A stretch of 64,000 bases of DNA from Verrucomicrobiia bacterium (GTDB lineage: Bacteria > Verrucomicrobiota > Verrucomicrobiia > JABWAM01): NCBI GenBank assembly GCA_020849895.1, contig JADZFN010000036.1:1-64000 (forward strand), written 5' to 3'. The notes beneath the pieces are model-generated. The model was given only the letters and a program-made list of their open reading frames with translations, had not been told where the DNA came from and did not search any database. The position numbers and the translations under genes were made by a program. Numbering within the stretch: position 1 is the first letter of the stretch; each line of letters opens with the position of its first letter. Below are positions 1 to 20,387 of this stretch, piece by piece.

Positions 1-1406
1 AAAGTCCCCACCTGCGTCGGATCGTAGAAACGCACCGCGTAGCTCGTCGCGCTGTTGGTCACCACGTCCGCCAAGCCCCCGGGCATCCGCACCTGACGCG
101 GTCCCCCGTTCGTCACAACCACCTGGACGTCTTCGCCCGAGACCTCGTAGTGGAGCGCCTGCGGCGTCGCCAACGACGCGTCCGCACTAAAGGCCTTGAT
201 GAAGAGCCGACCCCCGCCCTGCCCAAAGTAGCTGCGCCCAAGGTTCAGCGAGTAGTCCAGGCTCTTGTTCGCCGGAATGCCGCGACCCATGATGCACGTG
301 GCACCGTTGCATTTGATCTGAAGGGCGGCATCACCCTCACGTGCCGCACTGACGGTCGGGCATCCAGACAGCGCGTTGCATGTGTCGAACGGGACAGGAG
401 TCACGTTGGCCACCAGCAACCCGTCAATCGAGATGACGTGGGGATTGGGGGGCAACCAGTACCAATACCCACGCCCATCCAGATCGTGCGGCGCGGCGCC
501 GGCTTCAGCGTCGAGTCGGATGGACGCGGAAGACCCCCCTTGGATCGCCCCCTGAAGCGGGACGAAGAGATCGTGCCCATCATAACCCATCCGCACGAAA
601 TAGCAGCCGCCCGTCACCGCGGGCACGCTTCCCCCCACACTCACCGACCCGGCGCAGAATTCCTGGACGTTGTATTGAGCATAGATGGTGCCCAACCAGT
701 CCACGCAGTTCCCGCTTTGCACCGAATCCCCCCACTGAATCTGCTGCCCGAGGTTCGGATGAAACGAGACCGGTTGCCCGCCAGTTTGGCTTTCAATCGG
801 GTGTCCGGGAGGCGGACAGTAATGAGAATCGTCGTATGCGACGATGTAAGAACGGCTCTTTTGAGACGCCGTGATCGTCAGCCCTCCGTCGCTCCCTCCT
901 ACGGAATTCGAGAGCTTCGGCTTCATCGACAGCCGATTGATCTGCTCCGCCAACAGCGGCAGGAACTCCGCATAGTTCGCAGCCGTGATGTCGCTCGGCA
1001 AAGGAATCCGATCCCGCTGCTCGTTTCGCGTGGGCAACCCGGCGGCGTTCACCAAACCCGCGCCCCCCACGTCCAACGCCTGGCTCAGAATGAAGGAGTT
1101 GCGCACCTTCCCCGCCAGATCGGCCACCAGCTTCGCCGCCTTGGTGGCATCCTGCATGTCCACCGCGTAAAAACCATCCGTCGGCATCGCGGAGGCAACC
1201 CCCGACGAGTTCAGCGGCCACACTACGTACCCTCCCGTCAACGCATGATAGCGATCCTGGTACGCCCGCTGAAGCTCCTCGATGTTCTGGGCGGAAACGA
1301 CGCCTGCTGCGCCAAGGAACAGAACAGCTACCCAAAACAAGAACCATCCCCCACCCCGGGAAGAGGCACTTCCGTTCGCTGAAAGCCAACGCAAAGGCGG
1401 TGTCAC
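1..1406 (-). CDS. Secreted Rhs/YD-type protein, N-terminal part (runs off left edge)
   Basis: I translated the minus strand directly from a GTG at 1406-1404; the frame stays open to the window edge (about 468 residues). It starts with a hydrophobic signal segment (WFLFWVAVLFLGAAGVVSA, residues ~25-43) and then a mature extracytoplasmic region with several Cys. The last part (...GGLADVVTNSATSYAVRFYDPTQVGTF, quoted in pieces: GGLADVVTN, YAVRFYDPTQVG) resembles the segment preceding YD repeats in large verrucomicrobial Rhs-like proteins. That resemblance is from memory, not a search, and the repeats themselves lie outside the window. Its start overlaps the stop of the upstream giant gene as GTGA, so the two are probably translated together. 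The function is unknown. It could instead be another type of large secreted repeat protein. Confidence 0.65.
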   Translation of the reverse strand, partial: MTPPLRWLSANGSASSRGGGWFLFWVAVLFLGAAGVVSAQNIEELQRAYQDRYHALTGGYVVWPLNSSGVASAMPTDGFYAVDMQDATKAAKLVADLAGKVRNSFILSQALDVGGAGLVNAAGLPTRNEQRDRIPLPSDITAANYAEFLPLLAEQINRLSMKPKLSNSVGGSDGGLTITASQKSRSYIVAYDDSHYCPPPGHPIESQTGGQPVSFHPNLGQQIQWGDSVQSGNCVDWLGTIYAQYNVQEFCAGSVSVGGSVPAVTGGCYFVRMGYDGHDLFVPLQGAIQGGSSASIRLDAEAGAAPHDLDGRGYWYWLPPNPHVISIDGLLVANVTPVPFDTCNALSGCPTVSAAREGDAALQIKCNGATCIMGRGIPANKSLDYSLNLGRSYFGQGGGRLFIKAFSADASLATPQALHYEVSGEDVQVVVTNGGPRQVRMPGGLADVVTNSATSYAVRFYDPTQVGT

Positions 1407-4400
1407 GGGTTCTCTTCGAGGGGCGTGTAGAGGCGGAAGCCTAGCGCACCCTGCGAATCCAGCGCATCAGGCACATGCGGATCGCTGCCCAGCAGGTACT
1501 CCTGAAGGTTGGTCCGTCCGTCCCCGTCCGGATCCGCCGAAGCATCATTGGGATCGTTCGGGTTCAGGCCATGGGCGATCTCCCACGCATCCGGCATCCC
1601 ATCCCCATCCGAATCGGTATACGGCGTTGCACTCCCCTCGTTCGAATAGCTGGAGTAAAGACTGCCGTTGGCCGCGCGCACCCGGTAAAAATACTCCGTA
1701 CCGGCGCTTCTCCCCGTGTCGGTGAAGCTGGTCACTCCGGCCCCAACGGTTCCGATGACTGCAAAGTTCCCTCCTGAAGTGCGGCGCTCAATTTCGTAGC
1801 CGGTCGTGTTCGCGGCGTTGCCACTCCATGTCAGGTTCACGCTCGAGGCTCCGGTCGCCTGCGTAAACAGCCCCGTCGGATCCACAGGAGCCATGCCGTC
1901 GGTCGAAGCCGTGGCCGCGTCGGTCCACGCCGACATTCCCGCGCTGTTCACCGCGCGAACCCGGTAGGAATACGTCACCCCATCCGAAACGGAGGTGTCG
2001 TGAAACGAGGTCCCGTTCACGCCCACGGCCGCGATGAGGACGTATCCTCCACTACCAGTCTGGCGCTCGATCTGGAAGGCGGTCTCGTTGGAAGAAGTAT
2101 CGGTCCACGACAGGTCAATCTCAGAGGAGGACACCGCCGTCGCGCTCAGAGCCGTTGGGGCCGAAGGCGCCTGATCCGCGGTCGAAACCGACACTTCATT
2201 CGACCAAGGGGACTCGCCCTGGGAGTTGGTGGCTTTTACCCGGTAAAAATACGTCGTTTCCGCAGAGAGTCCCGAATCGGAATACGTTTGAACCCCCGCG
2301 CCCACGTAACCGGTCGCCGCATAGCTGCCGTCGGCTCCCGCCTTGCGCTCGATGACGAAGGTACTCTCGTTGCCCGAGTTGTCCGACCATCCCAGCTGAA
2401 TCTCCGTACCAGATACCGGGGTTGCCGTCAGTCCGGAGGGCGCGCCGGGCACGCCTTCCAAGGTGGTGGCGCTCGCTTCGTTGGAATAGTCGGAGTCCGC
2501 TCGAACTCCCAGAGCCTTGACCCGGTACGTATAGCCGGTTGAGGCCGACAATCCCCGATCCTGCCAAGCGGTCGTGTTGGGGAGAAGAAGGGCTACTTGC
2601 GCGAAGGTTCCTCCACTGATCTTTCGCTCGACCACGTAACCGAGTTCTTGATCCGAGTTGTCATTCCAAGCGAGGTCAATCTCGTCGGCCGCAACTGCCG
2701 CTCCCGTAAGCTCAGTTGGGGGGCGCGGGACCTGGATCCCATACTTGCGCGCCAGGTACTCGTCCACTTGCGCGCGATCCTGGGAGGAAAGTGTCCGCTT
2801 GTAGACAAGGATTTCCGCAATCTCGCCCTTGAAATAGTTGTTGAATGGATCGTTCGCAATCTTCAGTTGGGCTGACTGGGACACATCCAGCTGTGTCGTC
2901 ACGTTTGTGCACGTCAACAGAACACCATCCACACGAATGCCACCAGTACTCCCGTCGCGGTACGCCTGCACCACATGGTAGGTGTAATCCCAGTTCGAGG
3001 GTTGCACGCCCCATGCGGGCGTACCGCCATGCTGCAGGTACAAAGAGTCGCCCGCGGTGGCATGCAGCAGAAATCGATGCTCAACGGGATTTGGATCTCC
3101 ATAACACCACGCAAGCACCGTGTTGTTGACCTTCGACCCATCCTGTTTCATTACCAGGAAGAGGGTGCTTTCCGCCGCCGAGACCAGATTGCTCCCGACC
3201 AAGGAACTGCGCGTCAACACATCATCCGTACCGTCAAATCGAACGCCGGGAAGCCCCGTGTCTCCCGCGTTCACCCACAGAGGTCGGTACGAGCTCGTAT
3301 CCTGAGAAACGTTCAAACCGTTCCCACTCAAGTCGACCCATTGGGCGACGTTGGATGGCGCCAGCATCACCCCGCCACCCGCCTTCAGCCAGAGCGAAAG
3401 CCCCTCCATGGGGACATTGGGCGCTCCCGCCGTAGCCTGCACCTCAGGCGAATAATCGCTCCTCCCGAAGTCATTCGTCGAACATACCCTATACGAGTAC
3501 TGCACCCCACTCGTCAGGTTTGTATCCACATAAAACACGTTGTTGCTCGAAACCGTGGCGATCGCTTGGAACGTGCTGTTGGTGCCGTCGCGCCGCTCCA
3601 CGCAGTAGCCGAGCAGTCCGCCCCCAAGCCCAGGTTGGCCACCGACCCACGACACCACCACATCAGTTCCCGTCCGCGCGTCGGCACTGGCTACTGGGAC
3701 TGGAAAATACTTATGCAGCAGGTACTGCTCCAACTGACTCCGCTCATCACCCGACAACGCCACGTTGTAGATGAGAATCTCGGCAATGTCGCCGTTGAAT
3801 GCATAATCCGCCGAAAACTCGCTTTTACCAAGGTAGTTGAGGTTTCGGACCACGTTCGCCGGAAGCGCCATTCCCGTCGCTTCCGAAGCCTTCACCGCAT
3901 TCACATAAAGGGATGCCGTGGAGTTTGTACCATGGAGAATTTCGAACATCTGAGCATTGCTCGACTGCAGAGCATTCGTCGCGATGAGGCTGCCTCCAAC
4001 TCTCGAGAAAAACATGAGGTCATTGCTCTGGTCCTGCCGGCACAGGGCGAGGTCATTGGTGTTTGGCCCCTGCCCAAAATCAAAGAACCTCGCCCACTTG
4101 GATTGGGCCGTGGCCCGACCGACAACGACGGCCGTAAGCCCATTTGTGAAGTTGTTGAAGACGGAGGGCAAATTCAGCCACTTCGCATTTCCATCGAAGT
4201 GCACTGCCGGGTGTCCATTAAACGAATTGTTTACAAGGACCGGAGAGTTGTTATTGCCAATCTGATAAGCATCCGCTCCATTCGAACTCTGGTCCATCCA
4301 GATCATGCCGTCGGATGTAGTGCCGGCGCCCACTTCCGCATTAAGCCAGAGCTGCAATCCACGCGTTGGAACCGGTGCGTTGGTCAGGGCGTTGCTCAGG

Positions 4401-7400
4401 TATTTATCCTTCAGATACTCGCTAACCGCCAAGCGTTCCGATTCGGACAACTCACGGTTGTAAAGGATGATTTCAGAAATATCTCCGTAATAGTTTTTGT
4501 CCAAGTATCCGTCATCCCCTCCGGCCCAGTAAAAGTATTCGCTTTGCCCGATATAGTTTGCAGTTCGAACGACATTCGTAGGAAGCGCGATATTGTCAGC
4601 CTGGCCGACAAGCGCCCCATCGCGGAACAGGCGCACAACACCATTCGTGCCATGGACCACCTCCAAGATCTGCCGCTTTCCCAAAACGATGGCGTTGGTG
4701 GCCACGGGCCCATTGAGCGAGCTGGTATCCACATCGTAGACAAGATGATCTGTCGCTCCATACCTTGACAAAATGATATCTTGGTAACCGGATCCGTTGT
4801 GCCCGTTACCAAGATCGAGGAAGCGAGCCCACTTGCGATTCTCCGTCGGACGGGCCACGACAAAGGCGCTCACACCCGCCGTGAAATTCGAAAATCCTGA
4901 CGGCAACTGGAGGGAATCATCCCCGTTCACGCCCGCAAATCGAATCGCCGGTTTTCCATTGATCGCATTCTCTATCAAGCTGGGCTTTTGGTTGTTGCCG
5001 CTCTGCGTCGCGTTGTTCCCATTCCCGCTCTGATCCGCCCACATAAAGGGCGATCCATTGGTCACGCCAACGTCCGCCTTCAGCCACATCAGAAGCCCGT
5101 TCGTCGGCATCCCGCCCGTATTGACGGTGAACGTCACGCTGACCGCGTTGGTCCCGCTGGTCGCGGTCGCCGCCATGAGATTCGTGCCCTCGGACGTGAG
5201 AAAACACCAGGCCGAGACCTGGCCGTTGGTTCCCGATCTCAGGTTCAGTGTGCTGGAGGTCGAACCTCCGTTGGTGACAGCGAAGAGGCTCCCGCCGGCC
5301 AATGCACTAAAACTCACCGGGGCGTTTGTCAGCGCAAGCCCGTTGGTGTTGTTCACCTGAACGACCAACGGCATGGGAAGAAATGCGTTGGATGAACCAA
5401 ACTGGTTATTGCCGCTGACAATGCTCAGGACCGGCAACAACCCGTTGAAGAAGTCGTTGGGGTTGGTTCCCTGCTGGAATTCCTGAAGGTTGGTGAGGCC
5501 ATCCCCATCCGGGTCCGCGTTGGGGTCTTGTCCCGTAGCTCCGAAGTTTTGGATCTCCCAAGAGTCCGGAAGGCCGTTTTGGTCGAGGTCCACGAGGTCG
5601 AAGCGGACCTTGACCGGCACCGTGCGACAGAGATTGGTGCCTTCCCCCAATCGCCCACTGTATCCATAGCCCCAAGCCCAAACCGTCCCATCATTCTGAA
5701 GAGCCAGGGAGTGCTCGTCACCCGCAACAATGGCGATGATATTGCTCAACGCGGAGACTGCCACGGGCGTGCTGCGATCCACGGTCGTTCCATCACCGAG
5801 CTGCCCCCCATCATTCCAACCCCAAGCCCATACTGTCCCATTGGCCTTCAGGGCCAGAGAATGATAAGCGCCTGCGGCCACGGCCATGACGTTGCTCAAG
5901 CCGGCCACACTGACCGGTGTGTTGCGCTGCTGAGTCGAGCCGTCCCCAAGGTCTCCGAACCAGTTGCCCCCCCAAGCGGAGACACCCCCGTCTGCCAAGA
6001 GGGCGAGAGAATGGAACTGTCCAGCCGCCACGGAAACCGCATTGCTCAAACCCACCACACATACCGGCGTATTGCGCTGCACGGCAGCCCCATCGCCCAA
6101 CTGTCCGGACGAGCCGGCACCCCAAGCCCACACCGTGCCATCGTTCTTGACGGCGAGAGAGTGATAGTTTCTGGCCGAAATGGCAACCATGTCGGCGAGA
6201 TTACTTACCAAGGATGGACTACTGCTGGTGCCGTTAGGCGAACCAGTGCCCGCCTCTCCCTCATAGTTACGTCCCCAGCTCCATACAGTTCCGTCGTTCT
6301 GAAGCATCAAGCTATGGTAGGCGCCGCACGCGATGGCAGCCGCCGGACCTGACCCAGTAATTGGGAAGGGCTGTCCCCAAGTGTTTTGATTGTCTCCTCG
6401 CCCGAGCTCACCAAACGCGCCATATCCCCAACTCCAAACTGTGCCATCGGCACCCACCGCCATCGAATGCAGAGCTCCTCCCGCCACTTTAACGGCGTTG
6501 GACACACTTCCGATCAAGACCGGCAACGACGGAGCCGCGGCATTCCCGTCGCTTAGTTGATCCAGGCTGTTGTCGCCCCACCCCCAGAGCACGTGGTTGG
6601 TGTCAACGAACAGCGAAAAATCACCACCTGCTCCGAGCCGACCGCCCGTCTGGGCCACGGCATTGGTTGGGGGAGGCAGAGCAAACAACACCTGAACAAC
6701 GTTGGTGCCGCTCGTCGCCGTTGCCAGAATGGAATTGGTCCATCCGCCAACCGAGGGTTCGCGGAACCAAACGGACGCCTTGCCGTCACCCGCGGATCGC
6801 ACCGGCTGAGAAACCGCCAGCACGGCACCGTTCGTCCCCGTGGCGATCCTGCCTCCACCTTGGCTGACCGAAAACACCACTGCGGCATTCGACAAGGCCA
6901 CCCCACCCGTGCCTTGGACAAGAACTTCCAGAGGCTGAGGCAGGAACGTGCAAGCGGGCCCTTGCTGCCCGTTCCCCAAGGAAATGGTGAGGCTCGGGAT
7001 CACCCCATTGTAGAAATCCAACGGATACGGATCGCTCCCGTCGGGAATTCCGTCCCCGTCGGTGTCCGCAACGTTCGGATCCGTGCCGGCTTGTTGCTCC
7101 TGCAAATTGGTGAATCCATCTTGGTCGGGATCACCACTCCCCGTCTGGGCGGATATGCTTCCAAAATGCTCGATCTCCCACTTGTCCAGCAATCCGTCCT
7201 GGTCTGAATCGAAGAGAGGCATGATGGGAATCAAACGGTCCGTCCGGGTTCCGTCGCCCAGCATTCCGCCATCGTTATAGCCCCATGCCCACACCGTGCC
7301 GTCACTGCGTTTCGCAATCGAATGCAGGGCCCCAGCCGCCACGTCCACAACGTTGCTGATGCCCGAAACCGCCACAGGCGTCCACCGATCAGAACGGCTC

Positions 7401-9532
7401 CCGTCGCCCAGCTGTCCCACGTTGTTGTTCCCCCACGCCCACACGGTGCCGTCACTGCCCACTGCCAATGAATGATACTGCCCCGCGGCAATTAAAACGA
7501 TGTTGCTCAAGCCGATCACCTGGACCGGAGAGTTTTGCTGGGTGCCGCTATTGTCGCCCAACTGCCCGCAGTTGTTGCATCCCCACGCCCACACGGTGCC
7601 GTCGCCACGGAGCGCCAAGGAATGGTAAGCGCCCGCGGCCAACGCCAACACATTGCTGATGCCCGAAACCGCAACCGGCGTGTCGCGCTGCGTCGTTCCT
7701 CCGTCACCCAGCTGTCCGTTGGAACCCATGCCCCACGCCCACACGGTGCCATCGCCACGCACCGCCATGGTGTGGTAGTTGCCCACGGCAATCCCCACCG
7801 CATCGTTCCAATTGGTAACCGGGGCCGGCACGCCGGTTGTCGAACCGTTCCCCAACTGCCCCTCGTTGTATCGTCCCCAGGTCCAGACAGTGCCGTCGTA
7901 TCGAAGGCCGGCGCTGTGAAAGACGCCGGCTCCCAAGCTCACGAAATGCTCCACGGCAGTCATCGGAGCGGGGGTGTTCCAGCTCCCGCCGCGCCCCAAC
8001 GCCCCAAACCCATTATAGCCCCATGACCAGATTCGCCCTTGGGAATCCAGGGCCATCGTGTGGATGTAGCCCCCTACGGTCTGCACGATGTTGCTCATGG
8101 CCCCGAGCTGCACGGGGGCGGTCTCCATGGCTTGGTGTCCGTCCCCGAGTTCGCCGCACGAATTGTCTCCCCAACCCCAAAGCGTGCCGTTGTCCGCCAC
8201 CGCCATGGAGGCATAATGCGCGGCCCCCACTCGATGCACCAAGAAGGGGCTCACGGAGGGCAGGGCCGTAAAAATGACCTGCACCTGATTGGTGCCGCTC
8301 GATGCCACGACCGTTACGAGGTTCGTACCGGGGTTGAACGGAAACTGGTACCACGCCGCCGCTCGACCATTCGTCGCAGAACGCAAGGAGACGGAACTGA
8401 CCAGCGGACTTCCATTGGTAAAGGAAGAAAGCAGCCCCCCACCTTGAGTCACATTGAAAACAACAGGGGCGTTCGCGAGGAGGGCACCGTTGGTGCCGGT
8501 GACCTCCACGGTCATGGGCAGTTCGAGGAAGGCGTTGGTCCATCCCCGCTGAAAATTGCCGCCCGCGATGCTCAGGATGGGAAGCACCCCGTTGTAGTAA
8601 TCCGTCGGAAAGGCGTCGGCACCGTCAGGAATTCCGTCCCCGTCGGTATCCGGATTGAAAGGGTCCGTGCCGAGTTGCCATTCCTGCCAATTGCTGAGGC
8701 CGTCGCCGTCGGGATCGCTGTAGGTGGCGGGCAACTCCAAGACGCCGTTTGAAGAGAGCGCGATGTTGTACAGCCTGACCTCGTCCAGGACAAACGGCGT
8801 CCCGGTGATTGCAGGATTCGAGTTCCCGAGCTCGAAAAGCGCCGCGGTTCCGACGCTCCAGTTGGTGATTGTGGCGGTCGCCTCAGGCGTTCCGTCCACG
8901 TAGAGCGTCGCGTTGGAACCGGCCGTCGAATAGACACCCGCCACATGGTGCCACTGGTTGTCGAACACGTTGAGCGCCCCGCCGGACCCCGCCACGGACT
9001 GTACCTGCGAACCTGAGTCGATAAAATTCAAGCGGGCGATCCCGTTCGTGCCCACCACGAGGCTCCAGGCGTTGGTATTGGTCCCCGCCCAACGGGCCAG
9101 CACGGCCTCCCCGACCGCGTTGCTTCCCCTCAGCCAAGCCGACATCGTAAATCCATCCGTCAGCGAGAAGGTCCCGTTGGTGCCAAAACTCACGTAGGAG
9201 TTCGTTTCAAACGACAGGGCGTTGGAGAAAAGGCCCGTGACGAAAGGGGATGCGGGGAAATTGTTGAGCACACCGGTGACGGTGTTCCCCGAGCGATCCA
9301 GAACGTTGGTCTGACCAGCATCGTCCATTTGCCACCATCCCACGAGGTTGGTCGCCGCGTAGCCGTTGGTCGCAAACCCGTGTGCCGCCTGCCAGTCGTC
9401 GGGCAGTCCATCCCTGTCGAAATCCGCCGCGCGCAGCCAGATCAACCCCAAGCCCACCAAGATCAATCCAAGCCGCCACTTGTTCCGACCTGCTGCTATT
9501 CGCCAGTCGCTGATGGACCGGAAGACTTGCAT
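1403..9532 (-). CDS. Giant secreted RCC1/LamG/fibronectin-III protein (2709 aa)
   Basis: A signal-like segment (GLILVGLGLIWL, ~residues 22-33) is followed by a mosaic. This comprises a LamG-like domain (~60-255), DxDxDG calcium-type repeats (~270-310), an Ig/invasin-like domain (~317-425), a first block of seven RCC1 repeats (~434-785), a second DxDxDG segment and Ig-like domain (~790-965), and a second RCC1 block (~967-1310). It continues with a third DxDxDG/Ig-like unit (~1325-1480), two LamG-like domains (~1480-1940), an FN3 domain, a third LamG of this type (~2041-2268), four FN3 domains (~2271-2630) and a final DxDxDG segment. RCC1 repeats form beta-propellers and LamG binds glycans in known families. 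A role in surface binding or adhesion is inferred. No membrane anchor, PEP-CTERM or LPxTG tail is visible. The stop codon overlaps the next gene's GTG start. Confidence 0.9.
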   Translation of the reverse strand: MQVFRSISDWRIAAGRNKWRLGLILVGLGLIWLRAADFDRDGLPDDWQAAHGFATNGYAATNLVGWWQMDDAGQTNVLDRSGNTVTGVLNNFPASPFVTGLFSNALSFETNSYVSFGTNGTFSLTDGFTMSAWLRGSNAVGEAVLARWAGTNTNAWSLVVGTNGIARLNFIDSGSQVQSVAGSGGALNVFDNQWHHVAGVYSTAGSNATLYVDGTPEATATITNWSVGTAALFELGNSNPAITGTPFVLDEVRLYNIALSSNGVLELPATYSDPDGDGLSNWQEWQLGTDPFNPDTDGDGIPDGADAFPTDYYNGVLPILSIAGGNFQRGWTNAFLELPMTVEVTGTNGALLANAPVVFNVTQGGGLLSSFTNGSPLVSSVSLRSATNGRAAAWYQFPFNPGTNLVTVVASSGTNQVQVIFTALPSVSPFLVHRVGAAHYASMAVADNGTLWGWGDNSCGELGDGHQAMETAPVQLGAMSNIVQTVGGYIHTMALDSQGRIWSWGYNGFGALGRGGSWNTPAPMTAVEHFVSLGAGVFHSAGLRYDGTVWTWGRYNEGQLGNGSTTGVPAPVTNWNDAVGIAVGNYHTMAVRGDGTVWAWGMGSNGQLGDGGTTQRDTPVAVSGISNVLALAAGAYHSLALRGDGTVWAWGCNNCGQLGDNSGTQQNSPVQVIGLSNIVLIAAGQYHSLAVGSDGTVWAWGNNNVGQLGDGSRSDRWTPVAVSGISNVVDVAAGALHSIAKRSDGTVWAWGYNDGGMLGDGTRTDRLIPIMPLFDSDQDGLLDKWEIEHFGSISAQTGSGDPDQDGFTNLQEQQAGTDPNVADTDGDGIPDGSDPYPLDFYNGVIPSLTISLGNGQQGPACTFLPQPLEVLVQGTGGVALSNAAVVFSVSQGGGRIATGTNGAVLAVSQPVRSAGDGKASVWFREPSVGGWTNSILATATSGTNVVQVLFALPPPTNAVAQTGGRLGAGGDFSLFVDTNHVLWGWGDNSLDQLSDGNAAAPSLPVLIGSVSNAVKVAGGALHSMAVGADGTVWSWGYGAFGELGRGDNQNTWGQPFPITGSGPAAAIACGAYHSLMLQNDGTVWSWGRNYEGEAGTGSPNGTSSSPSLVSNLADMVAISARNYHSLAVKNDGTVWAWGAGSSGQLGDGAAVQRNTPVCVVGLSNAVSVAAGQFHSLALLADGGVSAWGGNWFGDLGDGSTQQRNTPVSVAGLSNVMAVAAGAYHSLALKANGTVWAWGWNDGGQLGDGTTVDRSTPVAVSALSNIIAIVAGDEHSLALQNDGTVWAWGYGYSGRLGEGTNLCRTVPVKVRFDLVDLDQNGLPDSWEIQNFGATGQDPNADPDGDGLTNLQEFQQGTNPNDFFNGLLPVLSIVSGNNQFGSSNAFLPMPLVVQVNNTNGLALTNAPVSFSALAGGSLFAVTNGGSTSSTLNLRSGTNGQVSAWCFLTSEGTNLMAATATSGTNAVSVTFTVNTGGMPTNGLLMWLKADVGVTNGSPFMWADQSGNGNNATQSGNNQKPSLIENAINGKPAIRFAGVNGDDSLQLPSGFSNFTAGVSAFVVARPTENRKWARFLDLGNGHNGSGYQDIILSRYGATDHLVYDVDTSSLNGPVATNAIVLGKRQILEVVHGTNGVVRLFRDGALVGQADNIALPTNVVRTANYIGQSEYFYWAGGDDGYLDKNYYGDISEIILYNRELSESERLAVSEYLKDKYLSNALTNAPVPTRGLQLWLNAEVGAGTTSDGMIWMDQSSNGADAYQIGNNNSPVLVNNSFNGHPAVHFDGNAKWLNLPSVFNNFTNGLTAVVVGRATAQSKWARFFDFGQGPNTNDLALCRQDQSNDLMFFSRVGGSLIATNALQSSNAQMFEILHGTNSTASLYVNAVKASEATGMALPANVVRNLNYLGKSEFSADYAFNGDIAEILIYNVALSGDERSQLEQYLLHKYFPVPVASADARTGTDVVVSWVGGQPGLGGGLLGYCVERRDGTNSTFQAIATVSSNNVFYVDTNLTSGVQYSYRVCSTNDFGRSDYSPEVQATAGAPNVPMEGLSLWLKAGGGVMLAPSNVAQWVDLSGNGLNVSQDTSSYRPLWVNAGDTGLPGVRFDGTDDVLTRSSLVGSNLVSAAESTLFLVMKQDGSKVNNTVLAWCYGDPNPVEHRFLLHATAGDSLYLQHGGTPAWGVQPSNWDYTYHVVQAYRDGSTGGIRVDGVLLTCTNVTTQLDVSQSAQLKIANDPFNNYFKGEIAEILVYKRTLSSQDRAQVDEYLARKYGIQVPRPPTELTGAAVAADEIDLAWNDNSDQELGYVVERKISGGTFAQVALLLPNTTAWQDRGLSASTGYTYRVKALGVRADSDYSNEASATTLEGVPGAPSGLTATPVSGTEIQLGWSDNSGNESTFVIERKAGADGSYAATGYVGAGVQTYSDSGLSAETTYFYRVKATNSQGESPWSNEVSVSTADQAPSAPTALSATAVSSSEIDLSWTDTSSNETAFQIERQTGSGGYVLIAAVGVNGTSFHDTSVSDGVTYSYRVRAVNSAGMSAWTDAATASTDGMAPVDPTGLFTQATGASSVNLTWSGNAANTTGYEIERRTSGGNFAVIGTVGAGVTSFTDTGRSAGTEYFYRVRAANGSLYSSYSNEGSATPYTDSDGDGMPDAWEIAHGLNPNDPNDASADPDGDGRTNLQEYLLGSDPHVPDALDSQGALGFRLYTPLEENP
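5600..6635 (-). repeat. Second RCC1 tandem-repeat block (DNA level)
   Basis: A second set of about seven RCC1 repeats with the same ~150-base period and the same WAWG...G.LGDG core. It is separated from the first block by a DxDxDG segment and an Ig-like domain. The two blocks are diverged paralogues, which suggests duplication of a whole DxDxDG-Ig-RCC1 cassette within the gene. Confidence 0.85.
7200..8235 (-). repeat. First RCC1 tandem-repeat block (DNA level)
   Basis: About seven imperfect coding repeats of roughly 150 bases, each encoding a block around GTVWAWG..N.GQLGDG. The most conserved stretch corresponds to 'cccacgcccacacggtgcc' on the plus strand and recurs at regular spacing. Neighbouring copies are close enough that unequal recombination could change the copy number. 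Confidence 0.85.
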
Positions 9533-9906
9533 GACGTTTGCTCATTAATCATGGACGTGAGGGGGCGTCAATCTTTTTCGACAGAATTTTTGAAAAGAAT
9601 TTTGGAACTGCAGGGGATGCCCCCCTGCTCGGCATCCACTCATTGCACAACAACTTCGGTCACGATCTCATTCCTCTTCGTCGATCGCGCATAGGCCATC
9701 TGCGTCACGGCACCACCGTCGCGGTTTCCCGAAATCCGTCGTGCGAAGGCGCGCCCGCCTCCGTCATCGCCGGATCGCAGAAGCACGTTCGTGGCGTCCG
9801 AAAACACGGGCAACAACTCGGCACGCACACGCCATTGCGTGCTGCAATCTGCTTCCGCCCAAGTCGTCCCAGGACGAACTTTGCCAAACGTCAAAAGGAG
9901 CGCAAC
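9533..9906. promoter_or_regulatory. Divergent intergenic region, giant gene / HA-repeat gene
   Basis: About 370 bases without a convincing gene. An open frame crosses it towards the HA-repeat gene, but its translation is not protein-like. On the minus strand a TTGACG (9571-9566) lies upstream of the giant gene with an AT-rich GATTAAT near 9550-9544. This is a weak promoter candidate. On the plus strand an AAGGAG (9895-9900) precedes the HA-repeat gene. Confidence 0.35.
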
Positions 9907-9930
9907 ATTCCATGGCGTGTAGGCTCAACG

Positions 9931-10773
9931 GTGAAATCGTGGGAAAGGCATTTCCTTGAGTTGGGGGCCTTCCGCCGAAGGAAGGGGCACTGTGCGGTCC
10001 CGCCCAATTGGAGCGAAAACCCGGACCTGGCCCGCTGGGTGGCGGTCCAGCGAACCCGACCGGACGGCATATCCGTCGGCAGGCTTCGAAGACTGTTCCG
10101 CTTGGGATTCGATTTCGGGCCATGGAACACGCGCTGGATCCGTCGGTTCCTGGAATTGGTCTCCTTTGGCCGTCGGCACGGTCACTTCCATGTCCCTTCG
10201 GCCTGGCCGAGGAACCCCTCGCTCGCCAACTGGGTCGCCCTTCAGCGAAGGACCCTTTCCCGCCTCCCTTTGACTCGAAGACGGCTGCTTGCCCGGTTTC
10301 CTTTCGAGGGCACGTTACGGGACACGGCGTTCGACCAACGGATGGCCCAACTCCGATGCTTCCGAAGCCGCTTCGGGCATTGCCGGGTTCCCGCCGTGTG
10401 GCCGCAGAACCTCCGCCTTGCCCGGTGGGTTCGTCGCCAACGAGAGCGAAGGAGCCGTCTCTCCGTCGACAAGAGACGCCGCTTGGAGGCTCTTGGATTT
10501 GTCTGGAACCGGTTCGAATGGCAATGGGAGCGGAACTTTCGACAGCTCCAAGCTTTTCGAAGACGGAAAGGGCATTGCCGTGTTCCCGCCGGTGGGTCTC
10601 CTCAATCCCCCCTCGGACACTGGGTCTCCCGTCAACGACGACGACGCGCCAAGCTCTCGCGCGCACAGGTCCACCGCCTCAATGCCCTCGGGTTTGAGTG
10701 GCACATTCCTCATTCCCCTACGTCATCCTTGCTTGCGACGCCCCGCTCCACACGCGCAACGCATCGCCCTTGA
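9931..10773 (+). CDS. Stand-alone helicase-associated (HA) repeat protein
   Basis: Four tandem ~68-residue repeats follow the helicase-associated pattern (W...F..L..F....GHC.VP......L..W...QR......L...R...L..LGF.W). In known proteins this domain sits behind SNF2/DEAD-type helicases and is thought to bind nucleic acid. Here no helicase domain is present. The protein is very rich in Arg, which fits nucleic-acid binding. The start is unclear. I chose GTG 9931, just before the first repeat (KSWERHF). The ribosome-binding-like AAGGAG at 9895-9900 is better placed for an ATT at 9907 in the same frame, or for an ATG at 9912 in another frame that stops after 15 codons. The 3' end overlaps the convergent MauE-type gene by 64 bases. 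The third repeat is less well conserved, so mild decay is possible. Confidence 0.6.
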   Translation: MKSWERHFLELGAFRRRKGHCAVPPNWSENPDLARWVAVQRTRPDGISVGRLRRLFRLGFDFGPWNTRWIRRFLELVSFGRRHGHFHVPSAWPRNPSLANWVALQRRTLSRLPLTRRRLLARFPFEGTLRDTAFDQRMAQLRCFRSRFGHCRVPAVWPQNLRLARWVRRQRERRSRLSVDKRRRLEALGFVWNRFEWQWERNFRQLQAFRRRKGHCRVPAGGSPQSPLGHWVSRQRRRRAKLSRAQVHRLNALGFEWHIPHSPTSSLLATPRSTRATHRP

Positions 10774-11231
10774 GAAGGGGATGCTTCCTGGGTGACCGCA
10801 TCTCGCGACCTGTCCTCGCGCAGAAGAAAAGCCACCGCTGTCAGCAACAAGGCGTTGCGGACAAGGGCCGCAGCCGGGGACGCCGCGACGATTGAAGCTC
10901 CGAAGCAGCCGCAGGGTACTTGCACGCCCCGTATCCATGCCGACACAAGCACCCCCGTAAAGACCAGCAGAAGCATAAAGAGGAGGCCGAGTGCGCTAGC
11001 ACGCCAGGTTCGAAATGCCAGTGCGAGACCCGCCACGATCTCGACCCATGGAATGAACAAGGCGAGGATCACCGCCACCGGATAGCCGACCGCATGGAAG
11101 TTGAGAACGTCCACGAGAAACCGAAAAGGATCGGCAGCCTTGCGGGCTCCCGCGACGAGGAAGAGGCCTCCCACACCGATCCTTATCAGGACGATCACCA
11201 CCTTCCACCACCGCCGTAGGGTGGGGTTCAT
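10710..11231 (-). CDS. MauE/DoxX-type redox-associated membrane protein (173 aa)
   Basis: Four transmembrane segments are visible (~10-28, 50-72, 79-98, 120-137). A PCGCFG motif (C107, C109) comes just after the third. This paired-Cys motif is typical of MauE-like proteins, which are linked to periplasmic thiol/disulfide chemistry. The longer open frame is a shadow: the start is the ATG at 11231-11229, overlapping the rhodanese gene's stop as ATGA. It is the last gene of the gspD-G-F-DUF1573-rhodanese run. An electron-transfer or thiol-relay partner role for the rhodanese protein is inferred from adjacency. The C-terminal tail after residue 140 is polar. Confidence 0.75.
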   Translation of the reverse strand: MNPTLRRWWKVVIVLIRIGVGGLFLVAGARKAADPFRFLVDVLNFHAVGYPVAVILALFIPWVEIVAGLALAFRTWRASALGLLFMLLLVFTGVLVSAWIRGVQVPCGCFGASIVAASPAAALVRNALLLTAVAFLLREDRSRDAVTQEASPSQGRCVARVERGVASKDDVGE

Positions 11232-11590
11232 CGCCCTTTTTCGCGGAGAACGTAAACCCGGTCCATGCCGGCTTTTTGAAGGCGTCGGGCGACCACTTCG
11301 GCTTCGACGCAGGACCTCGCGTCGCAACGCACGATCACCGGCCGGCCCGGACTCCATCGCTCCAACAGAGAGGAGAAAAAAACATCCCATTCCCCGGGAA
11401 GCGGACGTAATACGCCCGATGGATTCGCGGGCACTCCCCGCGCTGCCGTCTCCGTGTCCACCCAGAGGGAACAAGTGCGGAATCCTTCCCAGGTCCACGG
11501 CGGTTGCTTTGGATGAAACAAAGCTGCGACCGACGCTGGGAGCGCGGCGAGCACGCACAACGCGAATACCTGGCGTATCCGACAACTCAT
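11228..11590 (-). CDS. Exported rhodanese-like protein (120 aa)
   Basis: A short signal peptide (MSCRIRQVFALCVLAALPASVAA, in two parts: residues 1-12 and 13-23) precedes a single rhodanese-type fold. The active-site loop appears as VRCDARSC (C89, C94), followed by the helix VEAEVVARRL and a terminal strand RVYVLREKG. Rhodaneses carry sulfur as a persulfide on the loop Cys. The second Cys in the loop would allow disulfide chemistry. The start ATG (11590-11588) overlaps the stop of the DUF1573 gene as ATGA; the longer upstream start at 11608 would overlap further and is less likely. Its stop overlaps the MauE-type start, again as ATGA. Confidence 0.75.
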   Translation of the reverse strand: MSCRIRQVFALCVLAALPASVAALFHPKQPPWTWEGFRTCSLWVDTETAARGVPANPSGVLRPLPGEWDVFFSSLLERWSPGRPVIVRCDARSCVEAEVVARRLQKAGMDRVYVLREKGR

Positions 11591-12294
11591 GGCGACCGGG
11601 ATGACCATTCTTCCCGGATCATCGCGGGAATCGTAAACTCCTTCTTTGCTCCCATGGCGAAGTCGGTTTCCAGCAGGATCCGCGCCCTGGCGGCGGCTTT
11701 CGTGTCCTTCGGCGTGATCGTGAGCACGTACTCCCTGCCTTCTTCGAGAGTGCGTATCTTGGCTTGAAACACCTCCCCCTCCGCCTTCACGCCCAAGAGG
11801 TGGATGGGCTTTTCGTAAACCACTTTGAGGGAGACCTCCTTGGGCACCGGTTCTTCTCCGATCCTCCAGAACACAAAGGCCGGCCGCATTTCAAAGATTT
11901 CTGGAATATAGACCCGCAAGCTAAGAACCACGGTGGACTCAACGAGGTCGTCCATGCGAACGATGATCGTGCTGTCCTGTTGCCCCACGCGGTTACCGAA
12001 AGAGTAGGTCACCCTGATGCATCCAGTCTCGCCGGGCATGTACTGCTTCTTCGGGAGTTCGGCTGCAGTGCAGGCCCCACAGGAGCTTCTCACCTCGTGG
12101 ATGGCAATCGCGTGGGTGGTCGTGTTCGTGAAGGCGAACACCGCCACTGCATTGGTGTCCTGGAGGGAGGCGCGGACCTCGATCCGTCGGGTTCCCCAAC
12201 CCAGTTGGGCTTCGCTTCGGGGCGCCAACAAGAACATCGGGATCAGAAAGACCCCGATGGCAAGAAACCCGTATGGTCCGCGGTGGAGCCTCAT
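11587..12294 (-). CDS. DUF1573-family exported protein (235 aa)
   Basis: An N-terminal signal segment ending ...APRSEA (residue ~29) is followed by an Ig-like beta domain of the DUF1573 kind: FAFTNTTTHAIAIHEVRSSCGACT around residues 53-76, given here in part. Cys72 and Cys75 form the family's CGxC-like site and Cys92 lies nearby. The second half (~125-225) looks like a further beta domain. The family's biochemical role is not established. The start overlaps the gspF stop as ATGA, so it is co-translated with the secretion genes. Presence of Cys beside a rhodanese and a MauE-type protein suggests a shared redox function, which is an inference. Confidence 0.8.
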   Translation of the reverse strand: MRLHRGPYGFLAIGVFLIPMFLLAPRSEAQLGWGTRRIEVRASLQDTNAVAVFAFTNTTTHAIAIHEVRSSCGACTAAELPKKQYMPGETGCIRVTYSFGNRVGQQDSTIIVRMDDLVESTVVLSLRVYIPEIFEMRPAFVFWRIGEEPVPKEVSLKVVYEKPIHLLGVKAEGEVFQAKIRTLEEGREYVLTITPKDTKAAARARILLETDFAMGAKKEFTIPAMIREEWSSRSP

Positions 12295-13556
12295 AGCCTT
12301 CCGATGCCGCTGGTGAGGTCGAAGACCGCCATGAGAACGCTAAAGACAATACTCCCAACGAAAGCCGCCATGAGGACGATGAGGACGGGCTCGATAAGTG
12401 CCGTAAAGCGGGTGATCGCGCGGTCGAGGTCGCGTTCATAAGCCTGCGCGGTGTGCTGAAGCGCCTCGCCGAGGTCACCCGTGCGTTCCCCCACCGCGAG
12501 CATGTCGAGCATGAGATCGGGAAAGAGCTTCTGCGCGCCCAACCCCTCGTGGAGGCTGCGACCCTCGCGGACAGCCACGCGCGCCTGGCGAAGCGCGCCG
12601 CGCAACGCGGAGTTCGTGAGCGTCGCCTCGGCGACCTGGAGGCTTTCCACAAGAGTGACCCCGCTCCGCAGGAGCGTGGCCAGGGTCTGCGCGAGGCGGC
12701 TGAACTCCCCAAGGGCGAGAAGGGAACCGGCCAAGGGGACCCGCAACAGCGTGCGGTCCCAGACCAGCCGCCGCTCGGGCGCGCGGATCCAGGCACGGAA
12801 TCCCCACCATGCCGCGACCCCCACAAGGGGAATCAGCCAGCCAAATCGGGCGAGGGCGTCGCTCGTCCAGACAAGCATCTGGGTGGACCAAGGCAGCGCC
12901 TGCCCCATGTCCTTGAACATCCCCGAAAGGCGGGGAAGCATCACCAGCATGAAGAAAAGGACCGTCATCAGCCCGGCGGTGATGATGATGCAGGGGTAAA
13001 TCAATGCGCTGACCACGCGTTGGCGCACCGCCTCGCGTCGCTGGAGATACGCGGCGAGGCGCTCAAGGACATCCACGAGATGTCCGCTCATCTCACCGGC
13101 CTCGACCATCGCCCGGAACATGGAGCCGAAGAGAGTGGGATGGGCCGCCATGGCGGCGGAGAGGGGCCGGCCCCCCACAACGGCGGCGCGGAGGTCCTCG
13201 AACACCTGTTGCCACGCGGGATCAGCGCTGCGACGGGACATCACGGCCAGGGCTTCGCTCAGGCGCATCCCAGCGCGGAGGAGTTGAGCAAGTTGTTCGG
13301 TCTTGATGGGAGTGAGCGAACGGCGCGCCCGGGGCTGTCGCAAGCGAGCAAGCAGTCCTCCCGCCGGCCATGTCACGGGAGGCCCCTTTCCGTTCTGCTT
13401 CGGGGCGGTCGCCGGCGCCTCTTCTTCGCTGACATGAAGGGCAAACCACCCGCGCTCGGCAACGAGGCGGTACGCATGGGCGGAATCGCGCGCCTCGAGG
13501 CGGTCCTTCTTCAGCACGCCGGCTGCATCCCGCGCTTCGATCGCAAACCAGTTCAT
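12291..13556 (-). CDS. gspF: Type II secretion/pilus inner-membrane platform protein
   Basis: A 421-residue protein with two T2SSF domains (~85-208 and ~286-408) and membrane segments at ~186-207, 238-255 and 388-410, the usual GspF/PilC layout. The first domain contains QLLRAGMRLSEAL and the second TLLRSGVTLVESL, the conserved repeat signature. It would anchor the assembly ATPase and pseudopilin at the inner membrane. It lies 27 bases after gspG and overlaps the DUF1573 gene by ATGA. No assembly ATPase (gspE) is in the window. Confidence 0.93.
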   Translation of the reverse strand: MNWFAIEARDAAGVLKKDRLEARDSAHAYRLVAERGWFALHVSEEEAPATAPKQNGKGPPVTWPAGGLLARLRQPRARRSLTPIKTEQLAQLLRAGMRLSEALAVMSRRSADPAWQQVFEDLRAAVVGGRPLSAAMAAHPTLFGSMFRAMVEAGEMSGHLVDVLERLAAYLQRREAVRQRVVSALIYPCIIITAGLMTVLFFMLVMLPRLSGMFKDMGQALPWSTQMLVWTSDALARFGWLIPLVGVAAWWGFRAWIRAPERRLVWDRTLLRVPLAGSLLALGEFSRLAQTLATLLRSGVTLVESLQVAEATLTNSALRGALRQARVAVREGRSLHEGLGAQKLFPDLMLDMLAVGERTGDLGEALQHTAQAYERDLDRAITRFTALIEPVLIVLMAAFVGSIVFSVLMAVFDLTSGIGRL

Positions 13557-13583
13557 CGGGGAAGCGGAAGAAAACGGCGACCG

Positions 13584-14033
13584 CTACCAGTTGCGCACGT
13601 CGTCCTCGCTTTCGACCCCATCCTTGCCGAGGGAACTCAGGTCATAGCCTTCGGGATTGTGGACGCCCGGGGAAAGATAAACGTAATCGCGCCCCCATGG
13701 GTCGCGCGGCAGGGTCTTCTTCTCTAGGTACTGACGCCAGTTGGGCGGGATGGGCTCGGAGGTGGGTTTCTCAATGAGGGCCTTCAGACCCTGCTCGGTG
13801 CTCGGGTAACGGCCGTTGTCGAGCTCGTAGAGACCAAGGGCGGTGCGGAGAGATCCTTCGACATCGCTCCGTGCCGCCGTAACGCGCGCCTTCTCCGCGT
13901 TGCCCTGGATTTTCACAGTGGCAACCGTGAGGAGCATGCCGATGATCACCACCACCAACATGATTTCGAGAAGGGTAAAGCCCCCTTGCAGGAATCTGGA
14001 ACGATGCATGCGGCGGGCAAATAACGCGCTCAT
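13584..14033 (-). CDS. gspG: Major pseudopilin of the type II secretion system
   Basis: The product is 149 residues from ATG 14033, which has AGGGAG eight bases upstream. The longer start at 14093 overlaps gspD and is less likely. The prepilin peptidase site is GG|FTLLE, with cleavage after G18 and Glu at mature position 5, followed by a hydrophobic helix to ~residue 39. The C-terminal domain shows the GspG pattern (LYELDNGRYPSTEQGLKAL, then DPWGRDYVYLSPG, then YDLSSLGKDG), which in this family binds calcium. It follows gspD by four bases, so the genes are co-transcribed. Confidence 0.95.
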   Translation of the reverse strand: MSALFARRMHRSRFLQGGFTLLEIMLVVVIIGMLLTVATVKIQGNAEKARVTAARSDVEGSLRTALGLYELDNGRYPSTEQGLKALIEKPTSEPIPPNWRQYLEKKTLPRDPWGRDYVYLSPGVHNPEGYDLSSLGKDGVESEDDVRNW

Positions 14034-14037
14034 GAGG

Positions 14038-16230
14038 TCACTCCCTGATCTGCGCGGGCTTGGCAGGAATCGACTTCGGGCGTTCGATGGCATCGATCTG
14101 TTCGGAGAGGTTCTTGCGGCTAAGGATCTTGTCCTGCAGCCCCTGCTTCTTGAAGAGCTCCAAAGAACGACGCCGGAGGGTGGCCTCGGCGCTGGCCGCC
14201 TCGGCGGTTCGCAGCACGGTGGGTTTCAGCATTACCATCAACTCGGTCCGTGTCCCCTTCTTGTCCGTGGAGCCGAAGAGGTAGCCCAACACCGGAATGT
14301 CGCTCAAAATTGGAACGCCAGACCGGGTTACCGTCTCTTTGTTTTCGATGAGGCCCCCCAGGATCACCATGCTGCCGTCCTGCACGGACACAATCGAACT
14401 CGCCTCTCGCCGGGCGATGACCGGAACCTGGTTGTTATCGATGACCTGAAAACTAGTAATGTTGTCCACGCGCTGGAGGATGTCGAGGACCACGAGGCCG
14501 TCGGGGTTGACCAACGGACGAATGGTGAGTTGGATGCCGATGTCCTTGTACTCGTAGTTGGAGCGGAGATTGCCCTGATTTCCTACGAGATCGGTAGCGG
14601 TGCTGGTGACGATCGGGCGCGCCTCGGCCACGACGATTTTGGCCTCCTCGTTGTGGCTCGTCTGGATGATGGGCTGGGACAGGATCTTGACGCGGCTGTT
14701 CTGGGCAAGCGCCTGGACGAGAATGTCCACCTTGGAGTTCTTGAGCGAGGCGAAGTAGCTGAGGCCGGCAGGCAGACCTGTCGGGAGCGCGGCGGCCGAA
14801 CTGATGGTCGCGGCGTCGAGAGGGTTGATGGTCAGGCCCTTCACCAAACCCGCATTCGCGAGCTGGCCGCTGCTCGCGCGGGCGAGGACATCCACGCCCA
14901 GCGAGTCTTCCCGGTCGAGCGAAACCTCGACCACAATCCCCTCGAGGAGGACCTGGGCAAGGAGAACGTCCACGTCCTTCACGAAGTCCTGCACCCATGC
15001 GATGTCGGACTCGGTTCCCATCACGATGAGGGAGTTCGTGCGCGGGTCGGCGTAGACGACCAGGTCCTCGCCGAACTTGTTGACTTTGGTTCCGCTGGCC
15101 GAAGAAAGGCCCGACGAGGAAGGCGAGGTCGATCCCGCGGAAGAGCCGCGTTGGGGCGAAGCGGAATAGGGGCTTCCCGCCGTGTCACGGGTGAGTCGAT
15201 CCTTCTTGGCCCGCGAGGAGGCCCCACCCCTTCCCAAAACCTGGTTAATGAGGCCCGCGAGGTCTTCGGCCTCCGCGTACTTGAGTGCGATGGACTTGAG
15301 AATGGCCGGCGCGGCCGAATCAGCGTCGAGCCTCTCAATCATCTGGTCGAAGAAGGGAAAGTTGACCCCACGGGTGAGCAGGATGATCTGGTTGGTCCGC
15401 TCGTCGGCGGAAATGCTGACCTTGCCCACCACGATGGCCTCCTCGCTGAAGGTCAGCTCACCTCCCTTCGCGGCGGCGGCAGCCGCCTGCCCTTCCGCCC
15501 CCGGTGCTGCGGGAGGCGCACCCGGCGTGGCAGGTTTCTGCCCTTGTTGGGTGACTCCGGTGGAGCCGAGGAGTTCGAGAATCCGGGCCACTACGTCTTT
15601 CGCCTTGGCGTTCTTGAGTTGATAGAACTTGGTCTTGACCTTGGCCTCCAGTGGACGATCCAGGTGGTCGATGATCTTGCCGATCTCAATCAGGTTTGCG
15701 GCGGTGTCGGTGATCAGGATCGAGTTGGTGCGAGGGAATGGCGTGATCTGACCGTAGGTGTGAATGACGGGCTTGAGACTGTCCTGAACGTCCTTGACCT
15801 CCACGAATTTGAGCTGAAACACCCGGCTCGCCACCTGGTCCGCCGGCAGCAGTTTGTCGTCGCCGGCGCTGACGGCAACCCCCTCCCGTGTGACGTCTTT
15901 CGACAGGACTACCTTGAAGAACTTCTCCCCTTGGCGGACGACGGAGAAACCGTTGATCGAGAGAACATTCTCCAGGGCAATGATCGCATCCTCCTTGCTC
16001 AGTGGACCGTTTGCCTGGAGAACGATTCGGCCCGTCAGGGTGCTGGGGCGAATCGCCGTGCGACCGGTCAGGTCCGCGTACAGGGCGATGATCTGGTCGA
16101 CCGTCGCGTTCGGAAAGTTGATCGTAACTTTGTCGTCGGGACCCGCCGGGGCGCTTTTGACCAAGGGGGTGAGCAAACCGTTTCCGACGAACGCCGTCAG
16201 GAGCGCGATCCACAGGAACCGTGAGTTCAT
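14038..16230 (-). CDS. gspD: Outer-membrane secretin
   Basis: A 730-residue protein from ATG 16230. The first residues of the longer open frame come from a TTG start and are not signal-like. The signal peptide is FLWIALLTAFVGNGLL. An N0 domain (~35-110) and N1-N3 domains follow. A Ser/Gly/Arg-rich linker sits near residue 390, and the secretin barrel domain ends with VPILSDIPVLGYLFG and the following LMVMLKPTVL. It would form the outer-membrane gate. The linker and an Ala/Gly-rich insertion (~residues 235-260) are longer than in the proteobacterial protein. It is the first gene of the operon. Confidence 0.95.
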   Translation of the reverse strand: MNSRFLWIALLTAFVGNGLLTPLVKSAPAGPDDKVTINFPNATVDQIIALYADLTGRTAIRPSTLTGRIVLQANGPLSKEDAIIALENVLSINGFSVVRQGEKFFKVVLSKDVTREGVAVSAGDDKLLPADQVASRVFQLKFVEVKDVQDSLKPVIHTYGQITPFPRTNSILITDTAANLIEIGKIIDHLDRPLEAKVKTKFYQLKNAKAKDVVARILELLGSTGVTQQGQKPATPGAPPAAPGAEGQAAAAAAKGGELTFSEEAIVVGKVSISADERTNQIILLTRGVNFPFFDQMIERLDADSAAPAILKSIALKYAEAEDLAGLINQVLGRGGASSRAKKDRLTRDTAGSPYSASPQRGSSAGSTSPSSSGLSSASGTKVNKFGEDLVVYADPRTNSLIVMGTESDIAWVQDFVKDVDVLLAQVLLEGIVVEVSLDREDSLGVDVLARASSGQLANAGLVKGLTINPLDAATISSAAALPTGLPAGLSYFASLKNSKVDILVQALAQNSRVKILSQPIIQTSHNEEAKIVVAEARPIVTSTATDLVGNQGNLRSNYEYKDIGIQLTIRPLVNPDGLVVLDILQRVDNITSFQVIDNNQVPVIARREASSIVSVQDGSMVILGGLIENKETVTRSGVPILSDIPVLGYLFGSTDKKGTRTELMVMLKPTVLRTAEAASAEATLRRRSLELFKKQGLQDKILSRKNLSEQIDAIERPKSIPAKPAQIRE

Positions 16231-18809: not shown

Positions 18810-19079
18810 ATGACGACAAAGCTGACCACCGGTGATCTCGACGACCTCACGATGAAGGCTCGAATCGCCGAGAATGCCGCGAGACTCACTTGGTTGAAGC
18901 CCTGCGAGGCGGCCTGCTACATGAACATCGGCGAATCCACCCTTTGGAAACTTCTGGCTGAGGGGACAATCCCCTCTTCGAAGGCCGGAGGCAACGTTCG
19001 CATTGCCCGAACCGACATTGATGCCTACTGGGCCAAACGGAGGCGAGGCTCGACGGCAGAGGGGGGCTGCGAGAAGTGA
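18810..19079 (+). CDS. Excisionase/AlpA-type helix-turn-helix protein (89 aa)
   Basis: A MerR-like HTH of the excisionase family spans ~residues 28-76: [20 protein letters not shown] followed by [25 protein letters not shown]. Such proteins bend DNA for prophage or integron excision or control integrase expression. Its last ~18 codons overlap, on the opposite strand, the 3' end of the tyrosine recombinase gene, so the two transcripts would be complementary there. The upstream region carries a perfect palindrome. Confidence 0.8.
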
Positions 19080-20158: not shown

Positions 20159-20290
20159 GGTCTCAATCAATACCATCGGAACCATGGGATACAAGGAAAA
20201 AGCGTGATTTCGGGATACCAATATGGTATACCACTCAAAAATAGTCAGGGTGACAGCGAGAGCAGAATTACAGAATTTTTCAGAGTTAAA

Positions 20291-20387
20291 CCTCCGTCGG
20301 GTCGGGCCGTAGCGCAGCTTGGTAGCGCGTCTGCCTTGGGCGCAGAAGGTCGCGAGTTCGAATCTCGCCGGCCCGACCCGACGGAGG
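20291..20387 (+). repeat. 19-bp inverted repeat enclosing tRNA-Pro
   Basis: Bases 20291-20309 and 20369-20387 are perfect reverse complements. They comprise the seven acceptor-stem pairs plus 12 further pairs outside the mature tRNA (CCTCCGTCGGGT against ACCCGACGGAGG). The discriminator base is itself paired. In a precursor this would be an unusually long closed helix. Confidence 0.85.
20303..20376 (+). tRNA. tRNA-Pro (anticodon TGG)
   Basis: Folded by eye: acceptor CGGGCCG/CGGCCCG (7/7 pairs), TA at 8-9, D-arm GCGC-AGCTTGGTA-GCGC, anticodon arm TCTGC-CTTGGGC-GCAGA with TGG in the loop, T-arm GCGAG-TTCGAAT-CTCGC, and discriminator A at 20376. The 3' CCA is not encoded (CCC follows). Sequence flanking both ends is also complementary, extending the acceptor helix. 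Confidence 0.96.

Follow-up and report, generated by a model that had tools for sequence, protein, structure and literature searches.

A conserved three-gene cassette at the end of a secretion operon

We analyzed a 64,000-nucleotide stretch from a Verrucomicrobiia bacterium (GCA_020849895.1, contig JADZFN010000036.1, positions 1 to 64,000, forward strand), hereafter the window, in which genes for a DUF1573 protein, a rhodanese-like protein and a MauE/DoxX-superfamily membrane protein follow the type II secretion genes gspD, gspG and gspF. The DUF1573-rhodanese-MauE set is a real, conserved unit in Verrucomicrobiota, and the best reading of its position here is that it was secondarily attached to a secretion operon in the lineage of the window. 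We give an even chance to the view that the cassette is a stand-alone envelope thiol relay which became the tail of this operon, with its DUF1573 protein possibly aiding the biogenesis of a nearby locus for a giant protein.

All six genes follow one another on the minus strand, at the positions and in the shared orientation that the preliminary description of this DNA had reported. They encode the secretin GspD (16230-14038, ATG start), the major pseudopilin GspG (14033-13584), the inner-membrane platform protein GspF of type II secretion (13556-12291), the DUF1573 protein of 235 amino acids (aa; 12294-11587), the rhodanese-like protein (120 aa; 11590-11228) and the MauE-type protein (173 aa; 11231-10710). 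GspD scored over the cut-off of TIGR02517 (409 bits) and matched PF00263, and GspG, which carries the prepilin motif GGFTLLE, scored over that of TIGR01710 (142 bits). GspF matched PF00482 (E 2e-57) and reached 374 bits against TIGR02120, under the equivalog cut-off of 424. The DUF1573 protein matched PF07610 with 64.3 bits (cut-off 26.1) and the MauE-type protein matched PF07291 with 84.5 bits (cut-off 27, E 1e-23). The longest open reading frame (ORF) of gspG begins at 14093, and the gene probably starts instead at the ATG at 14033. Because this start lies 4 nucleotides past the gspD stop and only 27 bases separate gspG from gspF, the arrangement of the six genes is compatible with a single transcription unit. 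The three further junctions (gspF/DUF1573, DUF1573/rhodanese and rhodanese/MauE) are ATGA overlaps that can be read directly in the sequence, as had been claimed, and the cysteines singled out at the same time are all present (C72/C75 in DUF1573, C89/C94 in the rhodanese, PCGCFG in MauE). A scan of the operon region for consensus sigma-70 promoters gave none, the expected number being below one in any case.

Recurrence of the cassette and its cysteines

A first homologue search with the DUF1573 protein and the rhodanese as queries covered 57 relatives and turned up loci in which these two genes are neighbours, in most cases with MauE after them. A profile of the rhodanese family matched in 67 of the 115 Verrucomicrobiota genomes that made up our phylum sample; among the best 30 loci, a MauE gene was located within 1.5 kilobases (kb) in 29 and a DUF1573 gene in 20. 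We also compiled a census of 51 distinct Verrucomicrobiota loci of this rhodanese family, in each of which the genes were all on one strand. MauE adjoined the rhodanese in 42 loci, DUF1573 in 37, and neither in one. The order DUF1573-rhodanese-MauE of the window was found in 26 loci, followed by rhodanese-MauE (13), DUF1573-rhodanese (8), rhodanese-MauE-DUF1573 (3) and the rhodanese alone (1), these counts being lower bounds since several of the incomplete loci were cut off by a short stretch or a contig end. Each family is represented by a few of the thousands of genes in a genome, so such an association is not due to chance, and the three cysteine-bearing proteins are found together across the phylum.

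The paired cysteines are conserved as well. Both C89 and C94 were present in 50 of the 51 rhodaneses, the CGC motif in 42/42 MauE relatives that cover it, and the cysteine pair in 61 of 62 DUF1573 proteins, mostly as CGC; the family of the window protein has several variants with CxxC spacing, among them its CGAC. The preliminary description had made the functional link depend on this conservation beforehand, and on that score the outcome favours the cassette. Of 20 other rhodaneses with lower scores, taken from these genomes as a control, all had the active-site cysteine and only seven the second one. The divergence of the three proteins was correlated over 28 loci (r 0.55-0.58, with no permutation as high), a value from which species relatedness was not removed. 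A plasmid search returned one distant copy, with rhodanese and MauE 3.7 kb apart on a plasmid of Opitutaceae TAV5.

The genes flanking the cassette vary by lineage and include a Wzy_C O-antigen ligase, SufS, a serine dehydratase, an AIR-synthase-like protein, a fumarase and others. Since the neighbours differ between lineages, the cassette appears to be self-contained rather than a piece of a larger pathway. The genome of the window is approximately 94% complete, so that absences from it are provisional. Its contig 15 carries another rhodanese-MauE pair (G000:C15:26225-27260; L126:4225-5261), preceded by a Wzy_C O-antigen ligase and a 541-aa protein that is uncharacterised. The order Wzy_C-rhodanese-MauE was also found in G002, one of three genomes from other genera of the same family (G002, G003 and G004), and in G034.

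Features of the three cassette proteins

The DUF1573 protein, the sole copy in its genome, has a signal peptide, two tandem Ig-like domains and the C72-x2-C75 pair. Its AlphaFold2 model is all-beta (mean predicted local distance difference test score, pLDDT, of 84), and Foldseek placed it near HYDIN-type Ig domains, with a Porphyromonas gingivalis structure (PDB 2qsv) close; by sequence, the DUF1573 profile matched no solved structure. The rhodanese was correctly named in the preliminary description, but its identity comes solely through its relatives, whose family profile matches solved rhodaneses (PDB 6mxv, E 3e-26; 1yt8, E 6e-23). Pure misannotation was rejected, the relatives being clear rhodaneses. 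With an N-terminal hydrophobic segment (anchor or signal) ahead of C89-x4-C94, the protein is probably membrane-anchored and periplasmic, judging from its sequence. The MauE-type protein also matched DoxX (PF07681), barely above the cut-off. Hydropathy predicts four helices with the PCGCFG motif after helix 3, and by the positive-inside rule the CGC would be on the periplasmic side.

A possible thiol relay

We propose that MauE would exchange electrons, probably with quinone, on one side and with the membrane-anchored CxxxxC rhodanese on the other. Equivalents in the form of disulfide or persulfide would then pass from the rhodanese to the CxC/CxxC loop of DUF1573, a presumably periplasmic protein with two Ig domains that would serve as an adaptor or as the end facing the client. 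DUF1573 relatives occur as selenoproteins with selenocysteine (Sec) at the same motif, UGC (PMC9312934), and a rhodanese/DsbD-like fusion selenoprotein carries UxxxxU (PMC13188914). Because Sec replaces cysteine at these motifs in other bacteria, redox catalysis at the DUF1573 and rhodanese motifs is indicated. MauE, in turn, is thought to help disulfide formation in methylamine dehydrogenase, a speculated role (PMC7794033), and the thiol-oxidoreductase SseA of Mycobacterium tuberculosis acts together with a membrane protein of the DoxX type (PMC6930017). The recurrence of the set, its cysteine pairs and the correlated divergence also count for the relay, as does the genome of the window, which has one DsbD and no match to DsbB or VKOR.

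Several observations weigh against such a relay. The window rhodanese had no Pfam match at E 0.1 and no NCBIfam match, and in alignment its DAR motif has become DTE, GHIPGA is degraded and the C-terminal KGGWxAW is lost. With these motifs gone and no Pfam match, the window's copy could be in decay or have become specialised, although it retains both cysteines. One relative (L049) lacks both cysteines in an intact operon, and the single-sequence fold of MauE is not reliable (pLDDT 65, predicted template modelling score 0.28). Moreover, some lineages are without MauE. This is the case in genus g6 (L058-L062), where signal peptidase II is followed by DUF1573-rhodanese and then by the cysteine desulfurase SufS, and where the rhodanese has the shorter motif CxxxC; the SufS neighbour favours sulfur over electron transfer.

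The main rival is a persulfide relay, in which C89 would carry sulfane sulfur as a persulfide, DUF1573 would bind or deliver it, MauE would oxidise it to the quinone pool and the second cysteine would resolve the persulfide, a route that can be likened to thiosulfate:quinone oxidoreductase or sulfide detoxification. The true rhodanese fold and invariant active-site cysteine of the relatives fit this route, as do the relation of MauE to DoxX, the SufS of g6 and, in family f40, a serine dehydratase family enzyme (SDH alpha/beta) directly downstream of MauE, confirmed by Pfam in L177 and represented by homologous ORFs in L178 and L182, with an AIR-synthase-related gene in its place in L179. However, SufS and the dehydratase, both cytosolic, are each limited to a single lineage, the cassette was not seen in the company of thiosulfate or sulfide genes, and the near-invariant second cysteine suggests a dithiol mechanism. 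We therefore favour the thiol-disulfide relay and regard the sulfur route as rather unlikely. The CGC motifs could instead handle a metal such as copper, CxC and CxxC pairs being capable of metal binding; a MauE paralogue of this genome is faintly similar to HvfX, of a family involved in the maturation of copper-binding ribosomally synthesised and post-translationally modified peptides, at a level that is not significant (E 0.32). That other bacteria have Sec at this DUF1573 motif points to redox, and a rhodanese active-site cysteine would make an atypical set of metal ligands, which leaves metal handling highly improbable.

A bolder version of the thiol relay would make MauE and the CxxxxC rhodanese the missing quinone-linked generator of disulfides or persulfides in the Verrucomicrobiota envelope, replacing DsbB or VKOR with DsbA, and DUF1573 a dedicated carrier or client adaptor. 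No DsbB or VKOR family match was found anywhere in the genome of the window, MauE included, and the genome has one DsbD. VKOR was found in four of the 115 phylum genomes; in one of them, G013, the cassette is present too. We consider this extended role decidedly unlikely.

A weak link between the cassette and the secretion operon

Further along from the cassette, the window encodes a giant secreted protein of 2709 aa (1403..9532, minus strand) with RCC1 propeller repeats and LamG-like, fn3 and TSP3 domains, which may be an export substrate of the secretion locus. When its repeated module was used as a probe, the sole match in its own genome was the giant itself, and in G002 the only match was a 2902-aa protein directly after gspF-DUF1573; the two giants have stretches of RCC1 and LamG type in common. 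A neighbourhood of secretion genes, DUF1573 and a giant protein is therefore present in two genera. GspF orthologues from two further genera of the family were 61-63% identical to that of the window, and one from a different family of the same order was 51% identical. G002 has gspE-gspF-DUF1573, where gspF and DUF1573 likewise overlap as ATGA, and this secretion locus is without rhodanese and MauE. The orthologous loci of G004 and of G005 (another family of the same order) have gspE-gspF and gspD/gspG and no DUF1573. Unlike these relatives, the window has no gspE beside its operon, and the ATPases of its own genome are distant, scoring no more than 454 bits against the gspE of G002, compared with 740 for the G004 orthologue. 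Minor pseudopilins are also missing from the operon.

It had been suggested that the cassette matures or regulates what the secretion machine exports, which would make it a unit dedicated to the window's machine and its substrate. Three ATGA overlaps do extend the gsp operon into the cassette, the gspF-DUF1573 overlap and an adjacent giant recur in G002, each giant being the only copy of the module in its genome, and G004 has a 4706-aa giant relative approximately 7 kb from a gspG/gspD cluster. The gspF-DUF1573 overlap and the giant protein shared with G002 are what remains of the suggestion, as a weaker link. Of the genomes searched, that of the window alone had the full order gspD-G-F-DUF1573-rhodanese-MauE, which by the preliminary description's own criterion counts against the functional link. 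Rhodanese and MauE are missing from the G002 locus, and nearly all related cassettes have no adjacent secretion genes, just as the G004 and G005 gsp loci do without DUF1573. The window operon has no gspE, and the giant was rejected as a disulfide-rich client, having just 13 cysteines in 2709 residues. A role in maturing or regulating exported proteins is thus unsupported, the link between cassette and secretion is weak, and a dedicated unit seems very unlikely. At the other extreme, the gsp/cassette junction could be a chance fusion of operons by rearrangement, with no shared function, which would be compatible with the relay proposed for the cassette itself. The restriction of the full order to one genome, the changing flanks of the cassette and the absence from the window operon of gspE and neighbours that are present in G002, G004 and G005 all speak for such a fusion. 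Yet the gspF-DUF1573 overlap is common to two genera whose GspF proteins are 61% identical, which makes this part old, and in each of the two it is followed by a member of the same family of giant proteins. A chance fusion is a plausible account of the junction, somewhat short of an even chance. In the reading that we prefer, the thiol module would have become the tail of the gspDGF operon, next to the giant RCC1-repeat surface protein, in the window's lineage, and DUF1573 might assist the biogenesis of the giant-protein locus.

Other features of the locus

Behind the giant gene lies the start of a second secreted protein (1..1406, minus strand, 468 aa), which runs off the contig and is partly homologous to the RHS-type protein found behind the giant in G003; in G002, G003 and G004 alike, the giant has a large RHS-type protein after it. 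A plus-strand gene (9538-10773) situated between the cassette and the giant encodes a protein made up of helicase-associated (HA, PF03457) repeats, and this gene overlaps the end of MauE with its 3' end. On the other side of the operon, a tyrosine integrase and a tRNA-Pro gene (19025-20379; tRNA at 20302-20379) are separated from gspD by apparently decayed ORFs. We rejected the view that the tRNA-Pro and integrase around 20 kb prove an operon-bearing island, as no att-like repeat of tRNA-Pro was found within the 64-kb window. The DUF1573 family is expanded in the other genera of the same family, with eight copies in G002, five in G003 and three in G004, several of them at contig ends or beside large proteins containing Big_2, TPR or RHS domains. 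A recurrent unknown gene of approximately 320 aa (L037:1190-2158) also occurs beside DUF1573 copies.

Significance and comparison with known systems

If the proposed relay is correct, a whole phylum would handle envelope thiols with a toolkit drawn from three poorly understood families, and DUF1573 would gain its first function. With VKOR missing from 111 of the 115 phylum genomes and DsbB also from that of the window, envelope disulfide formation would become directly testable. The preliminary description knew of no system with this composition; our literature search of open-licence papers likewise found none, and the three-gene set looks undescribed.

The DoxX-SseA-SodA system of M. tuberculosis likewise combines a DoxX-superfamily membrane protein with a predicted thiol-oxidoreductase (PMC6930017). 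It differs in that SodA has no counterpart in or beside the window operon, DUF1573 has none in that system, and the window rhodanese is predicted to be exported and has a CxxxxC motif. SseA belongs to the rhodanese/sulfurtransferase family. MauE of methylamine dehydrogenase maturation is of the same Pfam family and has the CGC motif, but its partner is MauD, whereas that of the window MauE is a rhodanese; no mau genes were seen among the window neighbours that were read, the rest of the genome not having been searched for them. In the rhodanese/DsbD fusion-like selenoprotein TsoB (NF045694), the UxxxxU spacing equals that of C89-x4-C94 and is joined to a membrane thiol transporter-like domain. 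TsoB is nevertheless one fusion with a DsbD-like domain, compared with separate genes and MauE here, and the cassette relatives score far under its cut-off. OS_HP2/DUF1573 selenoproteins (NF041425) share the domain and have a Sec/Cys pair (UGC) at the same motif, while the window protein, at 29.5 bits against a cut-off of 100, has cysteines, CxxC spacing and a second Ig-like domain. As in known type II secretion systems, GspD, GspG and GspF are encoded in one operon, although here it is without gspE and minor pseudopilins and has three thiol genes appended. Finally, under the thiol relay that we favour, the cassette would do the same job as DsbB or VKOR with DsbA, using proteins of different fold families.

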